From NCBI GenBank assembly GCA_003349915.1, contig QFXE01000023.1, positions 46,833-93,476 of the forward strand: a stretch of 46,644 nt of DNA. Direction: 5' to 3'. Shown here piece by piece: positions 1,326 to 9,430 of the stretch. Below the pieces are notes generated by a model. That model had not been told where the DNA came from, made no database searches, and saw only the letters and a list, made by a program, of their open reading frames with translations. The DNA comes from an endosymbiont of Escarpia spicata. GTDB lineage: Bacteria; Pseudomonadota; Gammaproteobacteria; Chromatiales; Chromatiaceae. The stretch's first letter is position 1. Each line of letters starts with the position of its first letter. The translations under genes were made by a program, and so were the position numbers.

Positions 1326-2675
1326 ATGTCACTGCTCAACTCACTACTGAATCTTCGCCCGACTTTCCGGCACGGCGTCCATCCTGATCCTCTCAAGGAG
1401 CAGACGGTTGACCTGCCGGTACAGCGCGTACCCTTCGTTTCCCGCTATGTGATGCCCCTGGGACAGCATATCGGCGTACCGGCCAAGCCGGTGGTAAAGA
1501 AGGGTGATACGGTCGCCCGGGGTCAAATGATCGCCGAACCCGGCGCCTTCATGTCCACCGCCCTGCACAGCCCCGTTACCGGCAGGGTGGTGGGCATCGA
1601 GCCCCATCGCTATACGGACGGCTCCTTCAAGCCAGCCATAGAGATCGAAGCCGACCCCTACGCCACCCAACAGTTTCAACCCCGCCCGCCCATCGACTGG
1701 GAGTCCCTCTCCATGGATGGCTTCATCGCCGAGGTGCAGAAGGCTGGTATCGTGGGCATGGGCGGTGCCGCTTTCCCTGCCCATGTAAAGTACGCAATCC
1801 CGGAAGGACAGAAAATCAGCAATCTGCTGATCAACGGTGCCGAGTGCGAACCCTACCTGACCACCGACCACCGCCTGATGGTGGAGCGCCCCGAATCGGT
1901 TGTGCGGGGAGCAGAGATCATCCGCCGCAAACTCGGAGCGGAAAAGGCCACTATCGGGGTAGAGGACAACAAACCCGATGCCATCGAGATTCTCTCCCGG
2001 ACCATCGGCAACGAGCCCATCGAAGTGGTCGGGTTGCCGATGAAATACCCTCAGGGTGCCGAGAAGATGCTGATCAAGGCGACCTACGGCATCGAGATCC
2101 CTGCCGGGCAGCTGCCCCGGGATTGCGGTATCGTGGTCAACAATGTCGGCACTGCGGTAGCTGTCGCAGAATGGTTCGATTTGGGCCGCCCGCTGATGGA
2201 GCGGGTGGTCACCGTCTCAGGCCCCGGCATCCACTACCCCGCAAACCTGACGGTTCCACTGGGCACTCCCATCCGGGAGGTGCTGAAATTCTGCGGCGGC
2301 CTGAGCGAAAACACCCGTGAGGTGATCTCGGGCGGGCCGATGATGGGCGCACCCATCGCCAGCCTGGATGTTCCAGTGCTGAAGGGTACCTCCGGCATCC
2401 TCGCCTTCACCGCAGCCGAAACCGGACGCCCCCACGAATACCCCTGCATCCACTGCGGGCGTTGTCTGGAGGCCTGCCCCTATTTTCTCAATCCGTCGCG
2501 TTTCGCCCGCCTCGCCAAGGCCCGTTTGTTCGATGAGATGAACGCCCTGAACGTCTCTGACTGCGTGGAGTGTGGTGCCTGTACCTACTCCTGTCCCTCA
2601 GGGATACCGATCGTGCAGCATATCCGCACAGCAAAGAATAACTTACGGCAGCAGCATAAGAGGGCAAGCGGCTAA
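1326..2675 (+). CDS. rnfC: Rnf electron transport complex subunit C
   Basis: Peripheral Fe-S/flavin subunit of the Rnf complex, which couples electron transfer between ferredoxin and NAD to ion movement across the inner membrane. The 449 residues contain an N-terminal RnfC barrel-sandwich domain, the NADH/FMN-binding core with [12 protein letters not shown] (residues 144-155), and two 4Fe-4S motifs: C374-C377-C380-C384 and C413-C416-C419-C423. The protein lacks the long Ala/Lys-rich C-terminal tail of E. coli RsxC (about 740 residues). The Fe-S motifs separate it from NqrA of the Na+-NQR complex, which has none. It is the first gene of a C-D-G-E-A operon, the order known from clostridial Rnf, but it is followed by an unusually long gap of 236 bases before rnfD. 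Confidence 0.95.
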
Positions 2676-2681
2676 AAACAT

Positions 2682-2770
2682 GTAGGCCCGATCAAGCGCG
2701 GCGGATCGGGCATCCAGGCTTCGTCAGAACGATTCAGATTGCCGGTTCCGCTACGCTTGAACCGGCCTAC
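2682..2770. repeat. Inverted pair of REP-like elements between rnfC and rnfD
   Basis: Two related 30-base units lie in opposite orientation at 2682-2711 and 2741-2770, 29 bases apart. Each begins with GTAGGCC when read in its own direction, and each is itself an imperfect hairpin (arms CCGATC and GATCGG in the first, CCGGTTC and GAACCGG in the second). Reverse-complementing the second gives a close match to the first. This is the layout of paired REP/BIME elements. It sits inside an operon, so it may stabilise or attenuate the rnfC-rnfD transcript. Confidence 0.75.
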
Positions 2771-2868
2771 GGCTAAAGGCTTTTCGAGTATGTGTCGGTG
2801 TTTGTTATGTGCAAGTATTATTTTATGAATTATAAAAACGACAACGCTTGGCTTATCCGGTGGCACGG

Positions 2869-2908
2869 CCCCCTTTTGCCTTTAACCTTTAGCCTTTTGC
2901 CTTAAAAA
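2869..2908 (+). repeat. Degenerate pyrimidine-rich tandem repeat upstream of rnfD
   Basis: The stretch repeats a unit like CCTTTTGCC / CCTTTAACC / CCTTTTGCC and ends in an A-run directly before the rnfD ATG. No Shine-Dalgarno sequence is visible between it and rnfD, so the repeat seems to occupy the place where the ribosome binding site should be. Confidence 0.5.
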
Positions 2909-2911
2909 AAC

Positions 2912-3931
2912 ATGAAGAAGAAAGACCCAAATTTATTGGTTCAACCTGCGCCACTGCTGGTGCAGGGCATGACCACCCCCAAGGCAATGCGCGATGTCTG
3001 GTACGCACTGCTGCCCGCCACTCTGGCCGGTCTCTGGTTTTTCGGCCTCAGCGCCCTGCTGGTTCTGCTCGCATCGATCATCGGCGCAGTCGCCACAGAG
3101 TGGGCGTTTACTCCGGCGCAAACCCGGACCACGGCGCTAGGCGACGGCAGCGCCGCGCTCACCGGCCTGCTGCTGGGGCTGACCCTGCCGCCTGCATTAC
3201 CAATCTGGATGGCCTTTCTCGGCGGCGTAGTGGCCATCGGACTCGGCAAGGTAATCTGGGGCGGACTGGGTAACAACCTCTTCAATCCTGCGCTGGTGGG
3301 ACGAGCCTTTCTGCTGGGAACCTTTCCCATCGCCATGACCACCTGGTATGCGGCGCAGGGTCCGGAACACTTTTTCGACCTCTACTCCAGCACCCTGGCC
3401 GCCCCTTTCATGCAGGCCACCTGGGACACCATGAGCGGCGCCAGCCCCCTCGGTTTGATGAAGTTCGAATATGAGGGCACCGCTATTTCCAGCCTCTTTA
3501 TCGGCAACACCGCCGGCTCTCTGGGCGAAACCAGCAGCCTGCTGTTGCTGCTCGGTGGACTCTGGCTCTGGTTCCGCCGCGACCTGGACTGGCGCATCCC
3601 CGCCAGCATCTTTCTTGCCGCAGGCATCTTCTCCGGCATCCTGTTTGCCGTCGATGCGGAACGTTTTCCGAGCCCTCTCTTCACCCTCTTTTCCGGCGGA
3701 ATGATGCTTGGGGCGATCTACATGGCGACCGACCCGGTCACCTCACCGCTCACCCCCAGGGGCAGTTGGATCTTCGGTGCAGGCATCGGTTTTCTGGTGG
3801 TGCTGATCCGCGTCTTCGGCGGCATGCCGGAGGGCATGATGTACGCCATTCTGCTGATGAATGCCGCAACACCCCTCATCGATCGCTATACCCAACCCCG
3901 GGTATTTGGACGGGGAGTGAAAAAGGCATGA
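2912..3931 (+). CDS. rnfD: Rnf electron transport complex subunit D
   Basis: Membrane subunit of the Rnf complex, homologous to NqrB; carries a covalently bound FMN and forms part of the ion path. The 339 residues hold multiple hydrophobic helices, for example near residues 32-62, 83-115, 200-240 and 265-310. The expected flavin-attachment motif is DTMSGAS at residues 172-178, where the acceptor would be Ser178 rather than the usual Thr. The ATG at 2912 is preceded by an A-run with no clear ribosome binding site. The stop codon overlaps the rnfG start in ATGA. Confidence 0.95.
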   Translation: MKKKDPNLLVQPAPLLVQGMTTPKAMRDVWYALLPATLAGLWFFGLSALLVLLASIIGAVATEWAFTPAQTRTTALGDGSAALTGLLLGLTLPPALPIWMAFLGGVVAIGLGKVIWGGLGNNLFNPALVGRAFLLGTFPIAMTTWYAAQGPEHFFDLYSSTLAAPFMQATWDTMSGASPLGLMKFEYEGTAISSLFIGNTAGSLGETSSLLLLLGGLWLWFRRDLDWRIPASIFLAAGIFSGILFAVDAERFPSPLFTLFSGGMMLGAIYMATDPVTSPLTPRGSWIFGAGIGFLVVLIRVFGGMPEGMMYAILLMNAATPLIDRYTQPRVFGRGVKKA

Positions 3932-4605
3932 CCATCGAACAGCAATCCCTGGAGCAGCAGGAGCCCAGCTCCACCAAACTGGCCCTTTCGCTGGCCTTTG
4001 CCGGCCTGATCTCCGGCATTATCATCATCAGCATCTTCGAGGCGACCCTGCCTACCATCACCGCCAATAAGGCCCGTGAGTTGCGAGAGGCGGTTTTCAA
4101 GGTGTTGCCGAACGTCACCACCATGCAGAAACTGCAGTTCGACAACGGAAAACTGCGGGTGCGCACTGAAAAAGGGGCCGATGAGAATACGATCTATGGC
4201 GGTTATGGCAGTCAAGGCCAGTTCGTAGGCTATGCCGTGGAGGGTGCCGGCCCAGGATTTCAGGACACCATCCGCGTCCTTTATGGCTACCTGCCGGAGC
4301 AGCGCAAGATCGTAGGCATGGAGATACTGGAGAGCCGGGAAACCCCAGGTTTGGGGGACAAAATCTTCAAAGACATGGCCTTTGTCGCTAACTTTGACGA
4401 TCTTGCGGTCGATCCGGAGATAAAGGCCGTAAAGAAGGGCACCAAATCCACCCCCTTTGAGATCGACTCCATCACCGGCGCCACCATCTCCGCCAAGGCG
4501 GTGGTGAGGATCATCAACAAGGCCCGCGTACGCTGGGAAGACCGGCTGCCAGCCCCAGGCAATGAGCCGAAACTGGAAAGCAAAAAAACTAAGGACGAAG
4601 GTTAA
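3928..4605 (+). CDS. rnfG: Rnf electron transport complex subunit G
   Basis: Membrane-anchored periplasmic flavoprotein of the Rnf complex, homologous to NqrC; it passes electrons through a covalent FMN. I chose the ATG at 3928, which overlaps the rnfD stop by four bases (ATGA) and gives 225 residues; a longer frame running back into rnfD is an artefact. One transmembrane helix lies at residues 18-38. The FMN domain carries the flavin-attachment motif DSITGAT at 180-186, with Thr186 as the expected acceptor. No ApbE flavin transferase, which would attach the FMN, is in this window. Confidence 0.95.
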   Translation: MTIEQQSLEQQEPSSTKLALSLAFAGLISGIIIISIFEATLPTITANKARELREAVFKVLPNVTTMQKLQFDNGKLRVRTEKGADENTIYGGYGSQGQFVGYAVEGAGPGFQDTIRVLYGYLPEQRKIVGMEILESRETPGLGDKIFKDMAFVANFDDLAVDPEIKAVKKGTKSTPFEIDSITGATISAKAVVRIINKARVRWEDRLPAPGNEPKLESKKTKDEG

Positions 4606-4655
4606 GGGGAACATTCCTTCCCCCTTTATCCCTGGTAATTATTGAGACATCAATT

Positions 4656-5312
4656 ATGGCAATCAACATCAAAGACCCCTCCGCCGTACAGGAGATGATG
4701 AAAGGCCTCTGGCGGGACAACCCCGTCTTCGTGCAGGTGCTCGGCATGTGTCCGATGCTGGCGGTGACCAACTCCGCCATCAATGCGCTGGCGATGGGAC
4801 TCGCCACCCTGTTCGTGCTGGTGGGCTCGAGCGCCTTGGTCTCCGCCTTCAAGAACCTGATCCCGAAACAGGTACGGATCTCCCTCTATATCGTCATCAT
4901 CGCCACCTTCGTGACGGTGATCGACTACACCCTGCTGGCCCTGTTTCCCGCCATCCACAAGGAGCTGGGGGCCTTTATCCCGCTGATCGTGGCCAACTGC
5001 ATGATCCTCGGCCGCCAGGAGGCGTTTGCCGCCAAGCACACGGTGGGTTTTGCAGTGATGGACGCCATCGGCATGTCCGCCGGTTTTCTCATCGCCCTCT
5101 TTGCACTAGGCAGCGTGCGCGAGATCCTGGGCAACGGCAGCCTCTTCGGCATTGATCTGTTTGGTGCGGGATTTGAACCCTGGGTAATCATGATCCTGCC
5201 GCCGGGCGGCTTCATCACCCTCGGTCTGATCCTGCTCTTCTTCAACTGGGTCACCGAGCGCAAAACCCGGTTTCTGGAACAGGTTGTTGCCGCCGAACAG
5301 GCCAAGGGGTAA
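4656..5312 (+). CDS. rnfE: Rnf electron transport complex subunit E
   Basis: Integral membrane subunit of the Rnf complex, homologous to NqrD. The 218 residues form about six hydrophobic helices. The conserved stretches PKQVRISLYIVIIA, IPLIVANCMILGRQEAFAAK and GSVREILGNGSLFG match RnfE rather than NqrD. The Cys in the ANC segment is the RnfE-side ligand of the buried iron centre that RnfE and RnfA share. The gene follows rnfG by 50 bases and ends six bases before rnfA. Confidence 0.95.
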   Translation: MAINIKDPSAVQEMMKGLWRDNPVFVQVLGMCPMLAVTNSAINALAMGLATLFVLVGSSALVSAFKNLIPKQVRISLYIVIIATFVTVIDYTLLALFPAIHKELGAFIPLIVANCMILGRQEAFAAKHTVGFAVMDAIGMSAGFLIALFALGSVREILGNGSLFGIDLFGAGFEPWVIMILPPGGFITLGLILLFFNWVTERKTRFLEQVVAAEQAKG

Positions 5313-5318
5313 GCACGC

Positions 5319-5897
5319 ATGGATAATCTGATCTGGATCTTCATCAGCGCCATGTTGGTCAACAACTTCGTGCTGGCCTATTTTCTTGGGCTCTGTCCCT
5401 TTCTCGGCGTCTCCGGGAGGCTGGAAACCTCATTCCGCCTGGGCCTGGCCACCACCTTCGTGCTGCTCATCACCGCGCTCTGTTCCTGGTTTCTCAATGC
5501 CTATGTGCTGATCCACGCCCCCTACCTGAGACTGATCAGTTTCATCGTGGTCATCGCCTCCACAGTGCAGTTTATCGAGATGGCGATCAAGAAGCTCAGT
5601 CCCGCACTATTCAAGGCACTGGGCATCTTCCTGCCGTTGATCACCACCAACTGCGCCATACTGGGACTCGCAATCTTTGCCACCAACCGGGGTTACGGCT
5701 TCGCCGAAGGCATGGTCTTCGCCCTCGGCGCCGGCGCCGGCTTCACCTTGGCAATGGTCCTGATGGCGGGACTGCGGGAAGAGACCGAAATCATCGACAT
5801 GCCCGTGCTGGTTCGCGGCACCGCCATGAACCTGATCATTGCCGGCATCCTCTCCATGGCATTCATGGGGTTTGCCGGGCTGTTCAGCTCAACCTGA
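5319..5897 (+). CDS. rnfA: Rnf electron transport complex subunit A
   Basis: Integral membrane subunit of the Rnf complex, homologous to NqrE and pseudo-symmetric with RnfE. The 192 residues start with MDNLIWIFISAMLVNNFVLA and contain FLGLCPFLGVS and LPLITTNCAILG; these two Cys-bearing segments complete the membrane iron site with RnfE. The gene has an AAGGGG ribosome binding site at the end of rnfE. In clostridial-type operons rnfB would come next; here it does not. Confidence 0.95.
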   Translation: MDNLIWIFISAMLVNNFVLAYFLGLCPFLGVSGRLETSFRLGLATTFVLLITALCSWFLNAYVLIHAPYLRLISFIVVIASTVQFIEMAIKKLSPALFKALGIFLPLITTNCAILGLAIFATNRGYGFAEGMVFALGAGAGFTLAMVLMAGLREETEIIDMPVLVRGTAMNLIIAGILSMAFMGFAGLFSST

Positions 5898-5909
5898 GGA
5901 GGGTTACCG

Positions 5910-6116
5910 ATGCTCATCCATATACTTTCACTCCTGGGATTGATGCTGCTGTGCGGCGGCTGGGTGCTGTTTCAGGGCTGGCTGTCACGGCAGGATCCCG
6001 AATACAAGGGCTACAAGGTGGGTTGTGGTGCCTGCAAGCAGGGTAGCTGCTCCACCCAGGATGGTTGTGATACAGCCATCCCCGTCGTCTCTCTCAAACA
6101 CAGGCCTGATCAATAG
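5910..6116 (+). CDS. Small cysteine-rich membrane protein in the position of rnfB
   Basis: I do not recognise a named family. The 68 residues comprise one N-terminal transmembrane helix (about residues 5-24, with Cys15 inside it) and a short tail with the motif CGACKQGSCSTQDGC, giving Cys at 39, 42, 47 and 53. The charge distribution suggests a cytoplasmic tail. It begins 12 bases after rnfA behind a good GAGGAGGG site, so it is translated as part of the rnf operon. The Cys pattern does not match NqrM, which delivers iron to Na+-NQR, but a similar role in maturing the RnfA/RnfE iron centre, or carrying a metal or cluster, is reasonable inference. It is far too short to be RnfB. Confidence 0.75.
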   Translation: MLIHILSLLGLMLLCGGWVLFQGWLSRQDPEYKGYKVGCGACKQGSCSTQDGCDTAIPVVSLKHRPDQ

Positions 6117-6218: not shown

Positions 6219-7001
6219 TTACATGGCATCAAGCTTTCTGATAGCCGATGGATGCCGGATTCGTATGCGCTGGCTCCCCTTATAAGACCGGATCCAACCT
6301 CGCACTTCAACACGCTGACCCACCAAGCTTTCCAGCTGCCCTTCGTTGAAATGATCGAGATCCGAGCGGTCGACGCGCAACTTCACTCCGGCAATCTTCA
6401 ACCAGAGAGAACGGCGGCTCTGTTGCAACTTTTCAACCCAGCCCCGCAGCAATCGAAACCCTTCGACTGAGCGCGCCAGCCCAGCCGCATCGGCCACCGA
6501 CGCACTGGCCCAAACACCCCGTCCCGCAGCACGTGCCCGGCTTTCTGCCGCACTATAACATTGCAGGTGGTCTAGATTCGGGGGAAAGGCGATCTGGAAA
6601 CCCGCACCATCCTGCAACAGTGCCTCAATAAGATTTTTTCCATTCTGGCTATATACGTGGACCAGGATCCGTCGGTAGCGATCCTTTTGTTGATGCCCCT
6701 TCTCCAGACGAATCCGCTTACCGGAATCGGAGACCAGCCGCTCAAGCCGTCTCTTTGCAGCCTTGGCATGAGGTTCGTCGGGTTTATCCTCCCAACCTGT
6801 CTCCGGGGTATTGATACCGATCAGGCGAATCCTGCGGCCATCGGACAGCAGCAGAGTATCCCCATCGAAAACCTCCGCCACTTCGAATAACTCACCGCTG
6901 CGCAGGGAAGGGCAGGAAGCATCGACAGCGCTGCTGAACAGCAACGCCAGAAAGAGCAACAACAAAAAAGGCCCCGCACTGCGGAGCCTTTTTGCTGTCA
7001 T
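6219..7001 (-). CDS. Secreted thermonuclease (staphylococcal nuclease-like) family protein
   Basis: Predicted exported nuclease of 260 residues. I chose the ATG at 6999-7001, because a longer frame would run through rpmE. The N-terminus is a signal peptide: RLR, then a Leu/Phe-rich core, ending near VDA-SC (residues 26-31). The nuclease core shows FDGDTLLLSDGRRIRLIGINTPE, holding the metal-binding Asp, the catalytic Arg and the Asp-Thr pair, followed by DRYRRILVHVY with the second Arg. The C-terminal 90 residues include GQRVEVRGWI and may be an extra OB-like module. The first codons coincide with the rpmE terminator hairpin. Confidence 0.85.
   Translation of the reverse strand: MTAKRLRSAGPFLLLLFLALLFSSAVDASCPSLRSGELFEVAEVFDGDTLLLSDGRRIRLIGINTPETGWEDKPDEPHAKAAKRRLERLVSDSGKRIRLEKGHQQKDRYRRILVHVYSQNGKNLIEALLQDGAGFQIAFPPNLDHLQCYSAAESRARAAGRGVWASASVADAAGLARSVEGFRLLRGWVEKLQQSRRSLWLKIAGVKLRVDRSDLDHFNEGQLESLVGQRVEVRGWIRSYKGSQRIRIRHPSAIRKLDAM
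6964..6993 (-). terminator. Intrinsic terminator of rpmE, inside the nuclease signal-peptide codons
   Basis: On the minus strand the sequence reads AAAAAGGCTCCGC, a 3-base loop, then GCGGGGCC and a T-run: a G+C-rich stem with one mismatch followed by TTTTTT. It lies about 70 bases after the rpmE stop, where a terminator is expected, yet it is inside the first codons of the nuclease gene. Confidence 0.8.
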
Positions 7002-7062
7002 CTGCCTTGTTCGATCCACACGCTGCGCGGTCACAGACCGCGAAGCGGGCAGGGCGGCGAGA

Positions 7063-7266
7063 TTAACGGTTGTATTTCTTACGAAACTTATCGACACGAC
7101 CGGCAGTATCGAGGATCTTCTGCTTGCCGGTGTAGAAAGGATGGCAGGCAGAACAGACTTCGACGTGCAGCTCGTCCTTACCCAAGGTGGAACGGGTAAC
7201 GAACTCGCTACCGCAACTGCAAACGACCTTGACCTCATTGTACTTAGGATGGATATCCGCTTTCAT
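7063..7266 (-). CDS. rpmE: 50S ribosomal protein L31, zinc-binding type
   Basis: Component of the large ribosomal subunit that contributes to an intersubunit bridge. The 67 residues start [20 protein letters not shown] and carry the four zinc-ligand cysteines (C16, C18, C38, C41), so this is the C+ form rather than the zinc-independent YkgM type. Length is normal. A strong promoter lies 60 bases upstream and a terminator follows, so it is probably a single-gene transcript. Confidence 0.97.
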
Positions 7267-9377: not shown

Positions 9378-9430
9378 CGTAGGGTGTGCCGTGCGCACCA
9401 TGATTGCTGGTGCGCATAGCGCACCCTACG
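9378..9430. repeat. Imperfect inverted repeat between the TRAP-protein gene and hemW
   Basis: Arms of about 22 bases at 9378-9399 and 9409-9430, starting CGTAGGGTGTGC and ending GCGCACCCTACG, flank a 9-base loop. The GTAGGGTGTGC core is a common intergenic repeat type in proteobacteria. It sits just after the stop of the binding-protein gene and could act as its terminator, although there is no T-run. Confidence 0.7.

Follow-up and report, generated by a model that had tools for sequence, protein, structure and literature searches.

A small cysteine-rich membrane protein encoded after rnfA in oxoacid-oxidoreductase-linked Rnf clusters of a tubeworm endosymbiont

The rnf operon and its terminal small gene

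The DNA analyzed here is a stretch of 46,644 nucleotides from an endosymbiont of the tubeworm Escarpia spicata (assembly G000, 4.06 Mb in 23 contigs; contig C17, positions 46833-93476), which is referred to as the window. It carries an rnf operon with the gene order rnfC-rnfD-rnfG-rnfE-rnfA, which is followed by an open reading frame for a protein of 68 residues; rnfB is not found next after rnfA. The features are listed in Table 1. The small gene, which ends the operon, is the subject of this analysis. It codes for a membrane protein with one helix and four cysteines located C-terminal to it (C39-x2-C42-x4-C47-x5-C53), and its start codon (ATG at 5910) lies 12 bases past the rnfA stop codon (5895-5897). 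The layout had been described in the same way in an initial annotation, which is confirmed by the coordinates and by the matches to TIGR models.

The Rnf core encoded in the window is recognizable. RnfC, RnfD, RnfG, RnfE, and RnfA are all matched by curated models, RnfG with a score below the cut-off (94.0 bits against 102 for TIGR01947, obtained with a query that started upstream of the rnfG start). The cysteines of the RnfA/RnfE cluster and the flavinylation-type motifs of RnfD and RnfG are all retained. The two cysteines each of RnfE and RnfA given in Table 1 are presumably the four ligands of the membrane [2Fe-2S] cluster.

Table 1. Features of the rnf operon in the window
Feature	Position	Strand	Remarks
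rnfC (type I, oxoacid-oxidoreductase-linked lineage)	1326-2675	+	TIGR01945, 525 bits; CxxCxxCxxxC twice, residues 374 and 413
rnfC-rnfD gap, 236 bp	2676-2911	.	~240 bp in L042, 5 bp in L043
rnfD	2912-3931	+	TIGR01946, 332 bits; flavinylation-type motif SGAS, residue 175
rnfG	3928-4605	+	FMN_bind and TIGR01947; flavinylation-type motif TGAT, residue 183
rnfE	4656-5312	+	TIGR01948, 233 bits; cysteines 32 and 115
rnfA	5319-5897	+	TIGR01943, 234 bits; solved relatives 7zc6_A, 9eri_A, 8ahx_A; cysteines 26 and 112
Ribosome binding site (GGAGGG) of the small gene	5898-5903	+	read from the sequence
Rnf-associated one-helix Cys-rich membrane protein, 68 residues (type I family)	5910-6116	+	
Inverted repeat, 24 nt, 92% complementary, 13-nt loop	6140-6200	.	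directly after the operon; REP-like (repetitive extragenic palindromic) or terminator-like

Association of the small gene with rnfA

Because circularity was to be avoided, rnf loci in related genomes were located via RnfA and not via the small protein. Three kinds of operons were compared: type I, the operon type of the window; type II, the type of a further operon of the same genome on contig C10, which is linked to a pyruvate:ferredoxin oxidoreductase (PFOR) with its cofactor motif; and the classical operon. The type I set has RnfA sequences with 74-100% identity and comprises 34 loci, 25 from 96 genomes of the family and 9 complete ones from 369 genomes of the class. A partial rnfA (G261:C8), where the match to the small gene contains one stop codon, was excluded from this count. 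The type II set consists of 59 loci, a subset of such places in the lists. The 21 classical loci taken include two without a visible rnfE and one whose sequence stops at the end of rnfE.

A strict scan rule (a hydrophobic segment with at least three cysteines after it, in at most 85 amino acids) is passed by 30/34 type I and 50/59 type II rnfA ends but by none of 837 control gene ends from these loci (7/837 under a loose rule). The gene is also absent from all 18 classical operon ends with enough sequence. With the profile of the family, the small gene is confirmed as the next gene after rnfA in 32 of the 34 type I loci; as to the remaining two, the sequence of L068 stops 198 bp past rnfA, and L145 truly lacks the gene. 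It follows rnfA in 53/59 type II loci, 51 of them by scan and profile and two (L209 and L077, the latter read from the longer stretch L216) by profile matches that the scan had missed. A candidate in type II locus L218 agrees with the pattern and fails the profile. Since 33 of these small-protein sequences went into the profile, their passing it is partly by construction, which does not apply to the scan rule.

Searches that started from the small protein gave a concordant picture. With the window protein as query, 25 places were obtained from 24 of the 96 genomes of the family; all but one (G052:C12) lie after rnfA. Among the 369 class genomes, the type I profile matched in 12 genomes at 13 places (12 after rnfA; exception: L112) and the type II profile in 12 genomes at 12 places, all of them after rnfA. 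A joint profile, applied to 378 genomes of the phylum, matched in six genomes at seven places: four after rnfA, one right after feoB (L245, see below), and two (L243 and L244) which are likely chance matches. Homologues are thus not found mostly away from rnf; almost all of them sit after rnfA.

The small gene is conserved within the genus. In its first 45 codons, it differs from L042 by four synonymous and no non-synonymous changes, and from L043 by three synonymous and two non-synonymous ones. The protein is 87-94% identical to its counterparts in Lamellibrachia and Escarpia tubeworm endosymbionts. This conservation, together with the 0/837 control gene ends, rules out a random open reading frame. 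The small gene is a real component of both oxoacid-oxidoreductase-linked Rnf types, and the earlier statement that it belongs to the operon and is not there by chance holds.

RnfB and the three Rnf lineages of the genome

The initial annotation had considered rnfB to be absent, which would point to either a distant rnfB or a different electron entry. None is present in the operon itself. A search of G000 with TIGR01944 returned 12 RnfB-like places, three of which are relevant. The first belongs to a complete classical rnfABCDGE cluster (C9:28398-33623, corresponding to L010 8399-13624). The second (C17:31600-32691) codes for a long RnfB and lies on the contig of the window, 15.5 kb upstream of its rnfC. 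It is preceded by korA, korB, and a gene for an 823-residue PFOR-like protein (X823) and followed by a gene for a 1509-residue PFOR-like protein (C17:32688-37217). The third (C10:142995-143894) is also long; behind it come genes for a 1644-residue PFOR and a peroxiredoxin-like protein and then rnfCDGEA. This C10 operon (L066 and L012, ~132.5-143.9 kb) has its own small Cys-rich gene after rnfCDGEA. G000 holds three Rnf lineages: classical (C9), type I (the window), and type II (C10).

By its sequence, the RnfB from C17 is a long, clostridial-type RnfB: matches to two solved long chains, 9eri_B (E 1.3e-53) and 7zc6_B (E 2.6e-51), cover most of it. In 15 type I loci (L044, L046, L047, L049, L051-L059, L064, L068), rnfB and the PFOR-like gene adjoin rnfCDGEA. 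The series KorA-KorB-X823-RnfB-PFOR-like-C-D-G-E-A-small gene is unbroken in L055. As exceptions, no X823 was found before RnfB in L051 and L052, rnfC is inverted at the end in L052, and a gap of 2.6 kb lies ahead of rnfC in L057-L059. In G000, the half with KorAB, RnfB, and the PFOR-like protein and the half with rnfCDGEA are 10.9 kb apart, which probably reflects a rearrangement. The long RnfB from C17 can be assigned to the window operon as its putative partner.

Of the two options raised earlier, the distant rnfB thus stands, in the form of a displaced clostridial-type gene which relatives carry in the same cluster, while loss of rnfB with an RnfB-free electron entry is ruled out by the long RnfB upstream. 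The classical RnfB from C9 as the default partner of the window operon is possible but less likely, because it is the long RnfB that travels with type I operons. A second complete rnf cluster, which had been named as an observation that would speak against the original proposal, does exist at C9, yet it belongs to a different lineage without the small gene. As the small gene also ends clusters with rnfB upstream, it is not a marker of rnfB-less operons.

Compared to the clostridial-type Rnf (rnfCDGEAB), the window system shares the C-D-G-E-A order and a long RnfB like that of the Acetobacterium and Clostridium chains, but RnfB is encoded upstream by the oxoacid oxidoreductase genes and the operon ends in the small gene. 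The classical proteobacterial Rnf has the same core subunits but differs by a short RnfB, its gene order, an RnfA with ~54% identity, and operon ends that uniformly lack the small gene. In L080 (G032, from the same family), an rnf operon shows the clostridial order C-D-G-E-A-B, and the small gene is not found after rnfA.

KorAB and the PFOR-like proteins

Along its length, the 1509-residue PFOR-like protein can be aligned to the type II PFOR with 27.6% sequence identity. The thiamine-diphosphate motif (GDG...N) is gone at the aligned position in 17/17 orthologues but is present in 9/9 type II PFORs; the motif CxxCxxCxxxC is retained twice. Both NifJ-like proteins encoded beside korAB and rnfB (L011 1753-4224 and 5689-10218; G000:C17) lack the thiamine-diphosphate motif and look like conserved pseudo-enzymes. 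KorB has kept the GDG in both loci that cover this part (L011 and L055). We infer that KorAB performs the chemistry, while the PFOR-like proteins likely serve as wiring to RnfB and not as enzymes, because the thiamine-diphosphate motif is lost and the iron-sulfur (Fe-S) motifs are kept.

In the type II operon of G000, the gene after the small protein starts a phosphoenolpyruvate (PEP) synthase-like protein (PPDK_N). Such a neighbor suggests the reductive direction from acetyl-CoA and CO2 via pyruvate to PEP.

For tubeworm symbionts, Rnf, korAB, and a "PFOR-like" gene have been reported in the region of the reductive tricarboxylic acid (TCA) cycle (PMC6315080, PMC11636981). Rnf has been discussed in connection with this cycle (PMC6315080), and the expression of both korAB and the PFOR-like gene was down under sulfide limitation (PMC11636981). 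In these articles, rnfABCDGE is given together with korABCD, and korAB and the PFOR-like gene appear as separate entries. The accessible portions of both contain no mention of a korAB-rnfB-PFOR-like-rnfCDGEA unit or of the small protein.

The small protein and its relatives

In the AlphaFold model of the small protein (mean predicted local distance difference test score, pLDDT, 66), a single helix spans residues 2-28, and the tail is unstructured and of low confidence. Arg and Lys are abundant behind the helix; by the positive-inside rule, the tail is therefore predicted to be cytoplasmic. C39, G40, and C42 are almost invariant over type I and type II proteins. Otherwise, the tail varies in both types, with two to six cysteines and spacings in the ranges C-x2-C-x2-5-C, C-x3-C-x-C-x4-5-C, and C-x-C-x4-C. 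The window protein has no match in Pfam or NCBIfam, neither to an FeS domain nor to ferredoxin-type clusters as in RnfB.

In profile comparisons with hhalign, type I and type II small proteins are related with 97.2% over 53 columns. FixS, an unrelated one-helix protein used as control, reaches 28.5% with type I and 3.2% with type II. The two types are homologous as judged from these profiles. Among the 33 members of the family, no meaningful match to NCBIfam was found. The commonest Pfam match is FeoB_associated (6/33, best E 8.3e-4, the window protein not being among them), and three members match DUF6587 weakly. Proteins of these two families also have one helix and a cysteine tail, but the Rnf small genes adjoin rnfA and not feoB. 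The nearest outside relative found is encoded in L245 (1501-1698, minus strand) right after feoB, adjoining the C-terminal domain of FeoB. It is a one-helix Cys-rich protein of 66 residues, for which hhalign gives 96.8% with the joint profile. Its matches to DUF6587 and FeoB_associated are weak and stay under the curated cut-offs (21.0 of 27 for FeoB_associated). Since this relative was chosen as the top hit among 378 genomes, we regard a link to Feo-side proteins as suggestive.

The initial annotation had presented the small protein as an undescribed component. This stands, as the protein belongs to no Pfam or NCBIfam family. It is not described in the literature surveyed either, which is a weak sign of novelty, since subscription journals were thinly covered.

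A tentative iron chaperone for the RnfA/RnfE cluster

NqrM is a small one-helix protein with four cysteines which is co-encoded with a homologous membrane pair and is required for maturation of Na+-NQR (PMC12174285, a review which also describes the membrane [2Fe-2S] cluster). As the initial annotation had proposed that the small protein may mature the RnfA/RnfE iron site in the manner of NqrM, it was compared with this family (DUF539, PF04400). The small protein might even be an ordinary diverged NqrM, a Na+-NQR iron-maturation factor too divergent for Pfam: it is of equal size, has one N-terminal helix and four cysteines, and is encoded next to the homologous pair RnfA/RnfE, and its type II profile reaches 88.0% over 63 columns against NqrM. 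However, none of the 33 members matches PF04400 at E up to 1, and the cysteine spacing differs, with the C-G-G start of NqrM not being preserved. Type I reaches 29.9% against NqrM, no better than the FixS control. For the combined types, 69-72% was obtained over 18 columns (control: 37.9%). All comparisons to NqrM are limited by its alignment, which has 10 rows of PF04400 hits from the same family, four of them above the cut-off. In G000, PF04400 has no match at E up to 0.1. The missing PF04400 matches and the control-level similarity of type I speak against filing the small protein as NqrM, and we consider a diverged NqrM very unlikely.

What remains of the proposal is the helper for the iron site, which is still the best reading. 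We tentatively propose, with a probability of roughly 0.45, that the small protein acts as a chaperone, tethered to the membrane, which supplies iron or Fe-S to the RnfA/RnfE cluster of the 2-oxoacid-oxidoreductase-linked Rnf. The gene system would then consist of two halves, of which the window carries the one for the membrane part. The other half, 10.9-21 kb upstream on the same contig, codes for KorAB, the 823-residue PFOR-like protein, the long clostridial-type RnfB, and the 1509-residue PFOR-like protein, and would belong to rnfCDGEA, to which it is joined in relatives. Electrons would pass between NADH (at RnfC), the membrane core (RnfD, RnfG, RnfE, RnfA), RnfB, and the 2-oxoacid oxidoreductase. 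The net direction would likely be an uphill reduction, driven by the ion gradient, which powers reductive carboxylation. The 68-residue protein would be anchored by its single helix, with a flexible tail of three to four cysteines in the cytoplasm. This tail may bind iron, as Fe(II) or within a nascent Fe-S unit, and pass it to the RnfA/RnfE site during assembly. The protein would thus act in an NqrM-like manner, homology with NqrM being left aside. This reading draws on the association with rnfA, the homology between both versions of the small protein, the retained cluster cysteines and flavinylation-type motifs, the variable and unstructured tail, the relative next to feoB, the identity of RnfB, and the motif loss in the PFOR-like protein. 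The evidence is strong for the association and indirect for the mechanism.

Alternatively, the small protein might stay in the complex as a permanent subunit which carries an Fe-S cluster or metal site of its own and acts as an additional relay or a structural clamp connecting the long RnfB with RnfA and the attached oxidoreductase. This would be in line with the near-invariant C39, G40, and C42 and with the confinement of the gene to the two oxidoreductase-linked Rnf types, to the exclusion of classical operons in the same genomes. FeoC from E. coli, which is likewise small and Cys-rich, binds a [4Fe-4S] cluster (PMC8749426). However, a fixed Fe-S subunit is expected to conserve its cysteine spacing, while both number and spacing vary strongly inside each type. 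This variability and the unstructured tail in the model fit better to a flexible carrier than to a fixed Fe-S site. In addition, the gene is missing from six operons (see below), and solved Rnf chains match the profile only at E 2.7 or higher. There is no solved homologue of the small protein among these chains, and we know of no solved type I or type II Rnf complex. On balance, a permanent subunit appears rather unlikely.

A third option is a redox- or iron-sensing regulator or a stabilizer of the complex, like RseC of the Rnf/Rsx systems. The membrane protein RseC is associated with Rnf clusters and is required for autotrophic growth of Clostridium ljungdahlii (PMC9124969). One of the 33 small proteins has a match to RseC_MucC, which at E 0.62 is at noise level, and RseC has two helices (PMC9124969), while the small protein has one. 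Such a role is doubtful and less probable than that of a permanent subunit.

Several observations weigh against a chaperone. The similarity of type I to NqrM does not exceed that of the FixS control, and the higher value for type II (88.0%, with FixS at 3.2%) is suggestive at most. L052, a type I locus, codes for a protein with just two tail cysteines. The relative next to feoB in L245 represents the best hit from 378 genomes (E 2.4e-4 per genome), a search in which ~0.1 hits of this kind are expected by chance. Five type II loci (L166, L168, L171, L176, L178) and the type I locus L145 lack the gene despite enough sequence, and the small gene is therefore not strictly required. Finally, lacking this gene, the classical Rnf of the same genomes has to mature its cluster in another way.

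As to the operons that lack the gene, rnfA is directly followed by a PEP synthase-like gene in L178 and by an FNR-like reductase gene in L166, L168, and L176. The FNR name is our assumption, taken from the sequence; a fragment of such a gene in L065 has no Pfam match.

The chaperone reading can be extended to an Rnf which is hard-wired to a 2-oxoacid oxidoreductase and has its own iron chaperone from a family shared with a Feo accessory protein. The pseudo-PFOR without thiamine diphosphate would be the conduit between KorAB and the long RnfB, and the gradient would drive carboxylation without free ferredoxin. Such a supercomplex would need a dedicated membrane iron chaperone. We regard this far-reaching version as speculative and improbable.

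Surroundings of the operon

The gap between rnfC and rnfD looks like an inserted (repeat) element within the operon when compared to L042 and L043 (Table 1). Another inverted repeat of 23 nt is found at window positions 9378-9430. The neighbor of the operon on the opposite strand (6219-7238, minus) codes for a protein with a staphylococcal-nuclease-like domain (PF00565).

Implications

As a candidate factor that can be tested, the small protein bears on the question of how Rnf receives its buried Fe-S cluster. The loading of such a membrane cluster has so far been answered mainly for Na+-NQR, via NqrM. As the small protein tracks particular Rnf lineages but has no Pfam or NCBIfam model, automatic annotation is likely to skip it. 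An Rnf variant built around 2-oxoacid oxidoreductases, if true, would explain from where sulfur-oxidizing symbionts draw low-potential electrons to run the reductive TCA cycle or to make pyruvate.

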